The notes under the pieces are model-generated. The model was not told the origin of the DNA. It ran no database searches and saw nothing but the letters and a program-made list of their open reading frames with translations. From Vallitalea guaymasensis (GTDB lineage Bacteria > Bacillota > Clostridia > Lachnospirales > Vallitaleaceae), in NCBI RefSeq assembly GCF_018141425.1, contig NZ_CP058561.1, positions 2,666,001-2,730,000 of the forward strand: DNA of 64,000 nucleotides, in the 5' to 3' direction. Position 1 is the stretch's first letter. Every line of letters begins with the position of its first letter. Shown here piece after piece: positions 45,519 to 47,315 of the stretch. The position numbers and the translations under genes are program-made.

Positions 45519-45812
45519 TGACCCTTTAAATATAGGAAGGTTTTAGAAAAATAACCTTTTGATTGGAAGTTAGCTATGTAAGGAAAATCACTTTATGAAC
45601 ATATATTTATTTTTAGAGCAATAAAAACATAATATTGTTTTATATGTTGCTTTGTAGAAATTAAGCAATTTTAAGTATTAATAATAATTAGTTGGCTATA
45701 AAATTCTATTGTTTTTATATAATTTATAAGTATACAAGTGAGTTTTTTGTAATATTATGATATAATATATAAAAGCAGATAATAAACTAGATATATTCTT
45801 GGAGAAACAACT

Positions 45813-46214
45813 ATGATAGAGAGATTTGATATAGATAAACTAGATAAAAAAGCTTATATAATTGGAAAACTAAATAAAAAAACTATTGACCTGTTAAAGT
45901 TGCATATAGATGAAACAGATATAATTATAGGTGAAGATAAAATAAGATATACTCTTAAACACAAAAATGAATTTAAAGATGATGAAGAATATAAAAGGTG
46001 TATAGAATTAGCACCTGATATAATTGCTAATCCAGATTATATAGGAATGCATCCAAATAAAAAAAGTATTGAGTATATAAAAATTTTAGACAAAACATTA
46101 GTAGTTGCAGTAAGGATTAAACCTAAGGGTGTCTTATGGGTGAAAACAATATTTACAATTACTACTGATAAGCTAGAAAAGTATATAAGAAGTGGTAGTT
46201 TAAAAAGGTATTGA
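45813..46214 (+). CDS. Possible PBECR-type (BECR-fold) nuclease-like protein
   Basis: 133 residues, basic, no signal peptide. The pattern IGEDKIRYTLKHKNEF, APDIIANPDYIGMHPNKKSIEY, LDKTLVVAVRI and WVKTIFTIT is like the phage Barnase-EndoU-ColicinE5/D-RelE (PBECR) families: an early RxT-x-H block, an I-x-x-P-D-x-I turn, and a V-K-T-[IA] strand. Such proteins are RNase-like and occur in phage, polymorphic-toxin and toxin-antitoxin contexts. This is pattern reading, not a database match. An extended -10 TGATATAAT lies at 45758-45766; ATG with GGAG. The -35 of an RNA gene overlaps its stop codon. Confidence 0.55.
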   Translation: MIERFDIDKLDKKAYIIGKLNKKTIDLLKLHIDETDIIIGEDKIRYTLKHKNEFKDDEEYKRCIELAPDIIANPDYIGMHPNKKSIEYIKILDKTLVVAVRIKPKGVLWVKTIFTITTDKLEKYIRSGSLKRY

Positions 46215-46239
46215 CATAAGATGAGATTATATGTATAAT
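46211..46239 (+). promoter_or_regulatory. Perfect sigma-A promoter
   Basis: TTGACA (46211-46216), 17-bp spacer, TATAAT (46234-46239): full consensus in both boxes. The -35 overlaps the stop codon of the PBECR-like gene. It points to a start near 46246 with no coding frame behind it. Confidence 0.8.
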
Positions 46240-46245
46240 AAAACT

Positions 46246-46404
46246 AACTATTACATATGATATGATGATAAGTTATTTGAGGGCAGAACAGGCAGCTGCC
46301 ACGCCTATATTTTTTATAGGTCTGAAAAGAGATGTAGGATACGCCTCCCTACCAAATAACTTATCTTAGATAATAAACATTTCTATAATTAGAGGTGTTT
46401 TTTT
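46246..46404 (+). ncRNA. Unrecognised structured RNA, about 160 nt
   Basis: Begins about 7 bases after a full-consensus promoter and ends at an intrinsic terminator. Inside, GATAAGTTATTTG (46267-46279) and its exact complement (46353-46365) make a perfect 13-bp closing stem around about 73 bases holding three hairpins: GGCAG/CTGCC (46282-46286 with 46295-46299), CCTATA/TATAGG (46304-46309 with 46315-46320) and GTAGG/CCTAC (46334-46338 with 46348-46352). ACGCCT occurs twice (46301 and 46341). There is no coding frame of note. It does not match any riboswitch, 6S, SRP or tmRNA layout I know. Confidence 0.7.
46376..46404 (+). terminator. Terminator of the unrecognised RNA
   Basis: Nine-bp stem AACATTTCT/AGAGGTGTT with two G-U pairs, 6-base loop, then a run of seven T counted from the end of the stem. 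Confidence 0.8.
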
Positions 46405-46405
46405 A

Positions 46406-46738
46406 TTATTCTTTTTTTAGTTCCTGAACTTCATACATGTGTTTTAATTCGCTAATAGCTAATTTTCTGTTGATATAATCTAATTTATTATAATTTAGTA
46501 GTACTTCTTTTTCATCATTTCTTATATTGTTATTAACGGTTGAACCACTTAAAAGCCAATCTGCTGACAAATTATATTCGTTTTTTAGAGTTAACAAGGT
46601 TTTTCCTGATGGTATTACTTTATTATTTTCAATGTCACTTAAATTTCCTGTTGAAATTCCAGTTGCTTCATGTATTGCTTTTAAAGTCAACTTATTAGCT
46701 TTTCTAAAATATCTTAATCTGTTGCCTATAGTATTCAA
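46406..46738 (-). CDS. XRE-family helix-turn-helix repressor
   Basis: 110 residues starting at TTG 46738 (AAGGAG ten bases upstream). Residues 5-63 are a Cro/C1-type helix-turn-helix (LTLKAIHEATGISTGNLSDIENNKVIPSGKTLLTLKNEYNLSADWLLSG), followed by a short helical tail for dimerisation. It is divergent from a strong promoter holding a palindrome, the expected operator. It ends at the terminator of the RNA gene from the other side. Probably represses the 69-codon gene and perhaps itself. Confidence 0.88.
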   Translation of the reverse strand: MNTIGNRLRYFRKANKLTLKAIHEATGISTGNLSDIENNKVIPSGKTLLTLKNEYNLSADWLLSGSTVNNNIRNDEKEVLLNYNKLDYINRKLAISELKHMYEVQELKKE

Positions 46739-46784: not shown

Positions 46785-46812
46785 TTGACATACTCTGTAA
46801 AAAGAGTATAAT
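46785..46812 (+). promoter_or_regulatory. Strong promoter with palindromic operator
   Basis: TTGACA (46785-46790), 16-bp spacer, TATAAT (46807-46812). A perfect dyad TACTCT-N6-AGAGTA (46791-46808) fills the spacer and touches the -10, so a dimer bound there would block RNA polymerase. An ACTCT half-site lies near 46762. Confidence 0.75.
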
Positions 46813-47005: not shown

Positions 47006-47215
47006 ATGGAACCAGATTCAGTAGAAGAACTTGAAAAAATAATAGAATTTGTGGAATGTTGTAATGACTTTATAGCAAAAATTAAAGTTTACTTTGATGA
47101 TCCATTTATTACTCCTGAGGATAAAAAATATCTTATTCTAAGTATACAGCTACTAAGACATCTAGATTATAAATACATTAATAAAATATTGAAAAATATT
47201 AGTTATGAAGAATAG
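47006..47215 (+). CDS. Small acidic helical protein, unknown function
   Basis: 69 residues, mainly helical, with acidic ends and a Pro-bearing turn (YFDDPFITPEDKKYLILSIQLLRHLDYKYINKIL). ATG with AGGAG upstream. It follows the operator-controlled promoter with a leader of about 190 bases and runs towards the tRNA gene. No family recognised; a role tied to the XRE regulator is possible. Confidence 0.6.
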   Translation: MEPDSVEELEKIIEFVECCNDFIAKIKVYFDDPFITPEDKKYLILSIQLLRHLDYKYINKILKNISYEE

Positions 47216-47241: not shown

Positions 47242-47315
47242 CGCACGTGGTAGGACTCGAACCCACAACCCTCTGATCCGAAGTCAGATGCTCTATCCAA
47301 TTGAGCCACACGTGC
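47242..47315 (-). tRNA. tRNA-Arg (anticodon UCG)
   Basis: A 74-nt cloverleaf on the minus strand: acceptor GCACGTG/CACGTGC with discriminator G, D-arm GCTCAATTGGATAGAGC, anticodon stem TCTGA/TCAGA with loop CTTCGGA (anticodon TCG, reading CGA), and T-arm GTGGGTTCGAGTCCTAC. CCA is not encoded. Intact and very likely functional. Confidence 0.95.

Follow-up and report, generated by a model that had tools for sequence, protein, structure and literature searches.

What does the small structured RNA encoded at positions 46246-46404 of this Vallitalea guaymasensis stretch do, and which gene does it work with? The window, meaning the whole 64,000 nucleotides (nt) analysed here, carries it just downstream of a nuclease-like gene. 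A preliminary description had left the choice between a regulatory or antitoxin-like RNA and a new small RNA class. Our analysis suggests that positions 45697-46406 probably represent a two-part toxin-antitoxin module, similar to type III and carried by mobile elements, in which the RNA is the antidote of a nuclease with a BECR fold. The module includes the following features:

45813..46214, + strand: PBECR2/PBECR3 nuclease-like gene, 133 amino acids (AA), predicted toxin with a BECR/RelE-like fold (Pfam, AlphaFold2, VIA-align)
46211..46239, + strand: sigma-70-type promoter of the RNA, whose -35 element includes the nuclease stop codon
46246..46404, + strand: predicted transcript (start inferred from the promoter; fold)
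46272..46360, + strand: core of a skipping-rope RNA (RF02924), its outer stem reaching 46267-46365
46374..46403, + strand: intrinsic terminator-like hairpin and T-run (fold)

The RNA has the architecture that the preliminary description had given it. The promoter is composed of TTGACA (46211-46216) and TATAAT (46234-46239) separated by 17 nt and scores 12/12 against the consensus; promoter-like sites as such are no rarer than chance across the window (13 found, 12.7 expected), while the placement of this one recurs in homologues. The TGA stop codon of the nuclease gene (46212-46214) lies inside the -35 element. Folding of the transcript reproduces a closing stem of 13 base pairs (bp; 46267-46279 with 46353-46365) enclosing three hairpins, followed by one more hairpin and a T-run. 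The fold energy of -44 kcal/mol is far lower than the average of shuffled sequences (-26.5; z -5.19), and none of 200 shuffles equals it. The terminal hairpin is visible in the fold but was missed by a simple terminator scan because it is A+T-rich and the scan requires three G-C pairs. No open reading frame (ORF) of at least 50 AA overlaps the transcript, shorter frames being outside the listing.

The proposals that the RNA matches no family and that it may found a new class had to be abandoned. Positions 46272-46360 match Rfam RF02924, the skipping-rope RNA, over the full 80-position model with 74.2 bits (E 4.2e-16, cut-off 36.7), the sole match in this 5.63-Mb genome. The RNA is therefore a member of a known family without an explained function. 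This family was reportedly discovered by Weinberg et al. 2017. Its outer stem is 8 bp long in the model and 13 bp in the window, and in both the loops of two 5-bp hairpins form a pseudoknot. In the window RNA these are loop 1, AACAGGCAG, and loop 3, ATACGCCTC, which are complementary via AGGC/GCCT. Among 86 distinct loop pairs the longest complementarity averages 3.47, compared to 2.77 in 500 shuffles (maximum 3.03); some RNAs were mis-parsed (e.g. L277, L299, L304, L332, L341), a bias which runs against the signal. The same pseudoknot is drawn in Figure 3A of the Rfam 14 paper (PMC7779021), and a phage-host paper (PMC8501573) counts the motif among phage noncoding RNAs. Passages of these two papers give neither a function nor a partner protein for it. 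Rfam types the family as small RNA (sRNA). The window member sits beside a nuclease gene.

This nuclease belongs to the PBECR RNase domains described by Iyer et al. 2017 (PMC5512222). It scores 65.7 bits with PF18812 (cut-off 30) and 39.3 bits with PF18810 (cut-off 27.1), and no Pfam domain other than PBECR was found in it. Its AlphaFold2 model (predicted local distance difference test, pLDDT, 89.9) gives modest VIA-align matches to BrnT, contact-dependent inhibition (CDI) and RelE toxins, with RelE/BECR toxins and CDI nucleases dominating the list; ToxN is missing from that list, which is not decisive. Among 56 non-redundant family members, PBECR2 is recognized in all and PBECR3 in 54 (E <=0.01). 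An alignment of 56 relatives shows three conserved positions: Thr/Ser112 (56/56), Lys90 (54/56) and His46 (49/56). The window protein has Thr112 but carries a Tyr at position 46, where a catalytic His would be expected in the N-terminal helix; a His is found four residues further on. One PBECR family with Arg at the catalytic His position is mentioned in passages of Iyer et al. 2017 (PMC5512222). The window protein is a solo nuclease and lacks an N-terminal MuF domain. In three relatives, PBECR2 is fused to a phage head domain, Phage_Mu_F in L322 and L334 and Phage_min_cap2 in L368, and in all three the RNA follows about 30 nt downstream.

The nuclease is almost never found without the RNA. 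Two overlapping samples were searched, 391 genomes of the class and 398 of the phylum, shared loci being counted once. Nuclease loci were called at E <1e-9 with the nuclease alignment and considered paired when an RNA lay within 300 nt, every RNA place from the class and phylum searches being used in this reciprocal test. An RNA accompanies 59 of the 62 nuclease-family loci, 46/48 in the class sample (45 in the reciprocal test, plus G232 added by a sensitive scan) and 13/14 among those specific to the phylum sample. The 62 include broken or partial genes (G365:C70, G775, G564, G740 and G743:C11:9617). Dropped rows were five weak ones of the class sample (G338, G128, G385 and one fragment each of G285 and G365:C70) and one G775 fragment; the first three and the G285 fragment have no RNA within 300 nt. 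In the other direction, 60 of 101 RNAs have a nuclease (47/73 in the class, 13/28 in the phylum). The remaining 41 are an upper limit, since they include contig-end cases (G425, G494, G510) and the search scored ten candidates per genome; a rerun of the nuclease hidden Markov model (HMM) on three of them (L252, L254, L256) found none.

Such a pairing could be a by-product of cargo shared by phages and plasmids, with no functional link between the two genes. The patchy presence of the RNA (17 of 96 relatives) and the variable nature of the site occupied in the window, where the synteny of five genus relatives stops at the 3' end of a tRNA-Arg (~47240), would fit this explanation. However, the reciprocal test nearly excludes it. 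Moreover, ParE toxins of the same genomes behave differently: among 110 matches in 51 RNA-bearing genomes, compared with the RNA places by eye, only two lie within 300 nt of an RNA (G032:C2 and G326:C3) and a third lies at 307 nt (G174:C88), the last two loci also having a nuclease. A MuF_C search returned seven rows, three of which are themselves RNA-linked nucleases. The distance between the partners is short and their order mostly fixed. Genome G004, the other genus-sample genome with the RNA, shares with the window only ~45697-46406 (77% over 736 aligned columns), at another place in its genome and without the flanks. We consider the cargo explanation very improbable.

The G004 homology also limits the module to the nuclease, the RNA and the terminator. 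It stops before the XRE repressor gene, which was thus rejected as a module partner. A second 12/12 promoter (TTGACA-N16-TATAAT, 46785-46812, + strand) lies between the XRE gene and a 69-AA ORF without Pfam match (47006-47215). The tRNA-Arg itself occupies 47242-47315 (- strand); L387 carries the sequence of the tRNA end twice, the second copy (34 bp) lying at a distance of ~2.3 kb, a pattern expected of an integration site.

Neighbouring genes were compared over a wider set of 121 RNA sites, composed of 85 places on 80 stretches from the RNA searches, the window, and 35 pattern-derived sites. The latter were kept by eye from 70 stretches (4 viral and 66 genomic) retrieved with a strict pattern, the other 35 being dropped; a first viral pattern, which gave at least 120 stretches, was too loose and was set aside. 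At one of the 35 kept sites (L191) the RNA is reduced to its 3' half. The rows include at least four duplicate or nearly identical pairs (L141/L201, L143/L174, L162/L179, L171/L285), so the counts are not all independent. Clustering of proteins of at least 50 AA gave one family present at 82 sites, a few of its members being MuF proteins that lack the nuclease domain. The next clusters reflect Clostridium synteny, and the others include 3 to 10 sites each at scattered distances. Independently of the cluster, an HMM built from 66 proteins places a nuclease directly upstream of the RNA, on the same strand and within 130 nt, at 78 of the 121 sites. Where sites were not chosen by the pattern (86), 49 have it on the same strand within 140 nt and 53 in any orientation within 300 nt. 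Outside the Clostridium synteny, no other family of proteins of at least 50 AA was repeatedly seen at a constant position next to the RNA, and there is therefore no evident protein antitoxin.

Several local arrangements were observed at these loci. At many Clostridium sites, including L284 and L286, the pair lies directly 3' of spoIVA, as if domesticated. Three tandem skipping-rope copies follow a broken nuclease gene in L307 (8056-8381, G365:C70), and three copies lie within a tandemly repeated region in L270 (G088:C60). Some RNAs without nuclease neighbour other toxin or defence genes (L275, L328, L305 and L302/L318): ParE with RelB, HEPN with a nucleotidyltransferase, Abi_2 (~350 nt away) and a 192-AA protein without Pfam match found in two genomes. 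These are possibly alternative partners of the RNA.

Could the RNA instead be a cofactor, guide or scaffold of the nuclease, the two forming an active ribonucleoprotein that attacks other mobile elements, and not a toxin kept in check? The pairing data would be the same, and the closed pseudoknotted fold with its kissing loops would suit such a role. The distances separating nuclease sequences also correlate with those separating their RNAs (r 0.83 over 67 pairs; maximum 0.22 in 2000 permutations), which fits a cofactor as well as an antidote, but linkage alone can yield such a value. The RNAs that occur without a nuclease (41 of 101 at most) and those that stay intact where the nuclease was lost speak against a cofactor, and no guide-like variable segment was seen in the parsed RNAs, no dedicated test having been made for one. 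The cofactor explanation therefore appears unlikely.

The loss of the nuclease is seen at one site by comparing G026, which has both partners, with G079 of the same genus. Their upstream flanks are 92.8% identical over 7.3 kb and their downstream flanks 94.5% over 1.26 kb. In G079 the nuclease has been replaced, the two sequences become similar again within its final codons, and an intact RNA follows (58.2 vs 58.3 bits). In G310 about 290 nt are common, starting at the point where the G026/G079 similarity returns. The G026 nuclease is short (110 AA, first start codon TTG) and may itself be decaying. The two loci of G365 have in common a 158-nt stretch (90.5%) that spans the RNA and its end, and beyond it a single 71-nt match, while in G775 the nuclease is broken and the RNA kept. 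Antitoxins may outlive toxins but toxins should not outlive antitoxins. Of the three unpaired nucleases, one (G835) has an RNA ~1.8 kb away. The other two weigh against an antidote: both look intact, the RNA being visibly decayed in G336 and absent in G161, where the terminator is kept.

The RNA also appears to be an autonomous transcription unit. A promoter-like match of at least 10/12 is found in the 75 nt upstream of 60 of the 82 nuclease-linked RNAs with sufficient flanking sequence (1 and 2 of 82 in control stretches, which may be partly coding) and a terminator-like hairpin downstream of 77 (controls 32 and 15). RNAs without nuclease keep both signals: 14/36 have a promoter-like match of at least 10/12 (controls 2 and 4) and 19/36 one of at least 9/12 (controls 5 and 5), and 30/36 have terminator-like ends (controls 12 and 14). 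This persistence of signals, together with the two intact-looking nucleases without a good RNA, would also be expected of an sRNA that regulates mRNAs of its own in trans, the nuclease being a companion such as an RNA-maturing or RNA-degrading enzyme. A regulator of host mRNAs would not, however, be expected to be near-obligate beside a nuclease, even on plasmids of several phyla, and the loops of these RNAs tend to pair with each other. We judge this role improbable, slightly more so than that of a cofactor.

Plasmids and phages extend the association. A tblastn search with the nuclease found relatives on plasmids of Bacillus (including pTA1060), Fusobacterium, Enterococcus, Streptococcus, Brevibacillus, Priestia, Macrococcus and others, and in two phage records, while a blastn search of phages and plasmids with the RNA itself gave short chance matches only. 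When 21 of these loci were scanned, the RNA adjoined the nuclease in 20 (in L406 it falls below the curated cut-off); the 11 nucleases scanned for PBECR3 all match it. The RNA lies downstream on the same strand in 13 of the 20 pairs, convergently in six and upstream in one (L399). Because the pair occurs in three orientations, a fixed role as a 3' untranslated region is unlikely, and this argues for a trans-acting RNA. On pTA1060-type plasmids (L388, L391, L400, L401), the Bacillus-plasmid RNA RF01691 lies ~100 nt past the convergent skipping-rope RNA and a 305-AA gene that weakly matches HTH_36 directly precedes the nuclease; genes of ~290-300 AA also precede it in L390, L398 and L405. In Streptococcus phage Javan254, a PBECR3 protein bears the annotation "spbA protein". 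According to a reference title in PMC13001229, spbA is a segregational stability locus of pHT1030 (Lereclus and Arantes 1992); the nuclease-RNA pair, too, occurs on many small plasmids. No Bacillus thuringiensis plasmid is among the tblastn matches listed; the link to spbA is unconfirmed and serves as a lead only.

An antidote is the simplest account of these observations because the RNA is nearly always beside the nuclease, can persist without it and has its own promoter, because the nuclease belongs to a toxin-rich class and because no protein antitoxin recurs. The regulatory or antitoxin-like role in the earlier proposal is thereby supported, by the near-obligate pairing, also on plasmids, and by the RNAs kept where the nuclease is gone. 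The pairing is observed; from it we infer that the nuclease would be toxic, that the RNA would bind and neutralise it and that the pair would contribute to plasmid maintenance. The RNase (45813-46214) would be held inactive by bound skipping-rope RNA made from its own strong promoter. If the plasmid, prophage or island carrying the module were lost, the RNA would run out first and the cell would be poisoned. If a phage head protein carries the nuclease domain, the RNA may make the lysogen immune to a nuclease that arrives with the virion.

In type III toxin-antitoxin systems (ToxIN, CptIN, TenpIN), the antitoxin RNA is made as repeats upstream of the gene for a ToxN-like toxin. As in these systems, the window has an RNase gene beside a structured RNA. 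However, a single pseudoknotted RNA with its own promoter lies downstream of the gene in place of the upstream repeats or leader; among the 20 plasmid or phage pairs, the upstream position typical of type III is that of L399 alone. The toxin class also differs, being BECR-type here, ToxN in type III systems and HEPN in AbiF. Passages on AbiF-RCd22 (PMC12373285) describe an RNA that neutralises an RNase protein directly, a prophage precedent which shows, by analogy, that a noncoding RNA can hold a prophage RNase. Passages on PBECR (PMC5512222) present predicted RNases that stand alone or are joined to MuF and portal proteins and that enter the cell with the injected virion contents; they propose mRNAs or CRISPR RNAs as targets, name no RNA partner gene and do not contain the term "noncoding RNA". 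For MuF polymorphic toxins of temperate phages, passages of Jamet et al. 2017 (PMC5576092) describe protein immunity ORFs 3' of the toxin gene, whereas at L322, L334 and L368 the immunity determinant would be the RNA.

More tentatively, and with somewhat more doubt than confidence, skipping-rope RNAs may act as antidotes to an entire clan of toxins with a BECR fold. They would form a new type III family that would also provide RNA immunity to nucleases in phage head proteins, its plasmids and phages belonging to Bacillota, Fusobacteriota, Spirochaetota and probably Pseudomonadota. In that case, RNAs lacking a nuclease would serve in anti-addiction or superinfection immunity. If skipping-rope RNAs are antidotes, this would give a function to an RNA family listed without one, supply the missing regulator of predicted phage RNases, bring a BECR-type clan into the RNA-protein toxin-antitoxin systems, and account for a nameless gene that recurs on small plasmids of Gram-positive bacteria and Fusobacterium. 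Whether RNA protects against toxins carried by virions would become directly testable with two short pieces of DNA.
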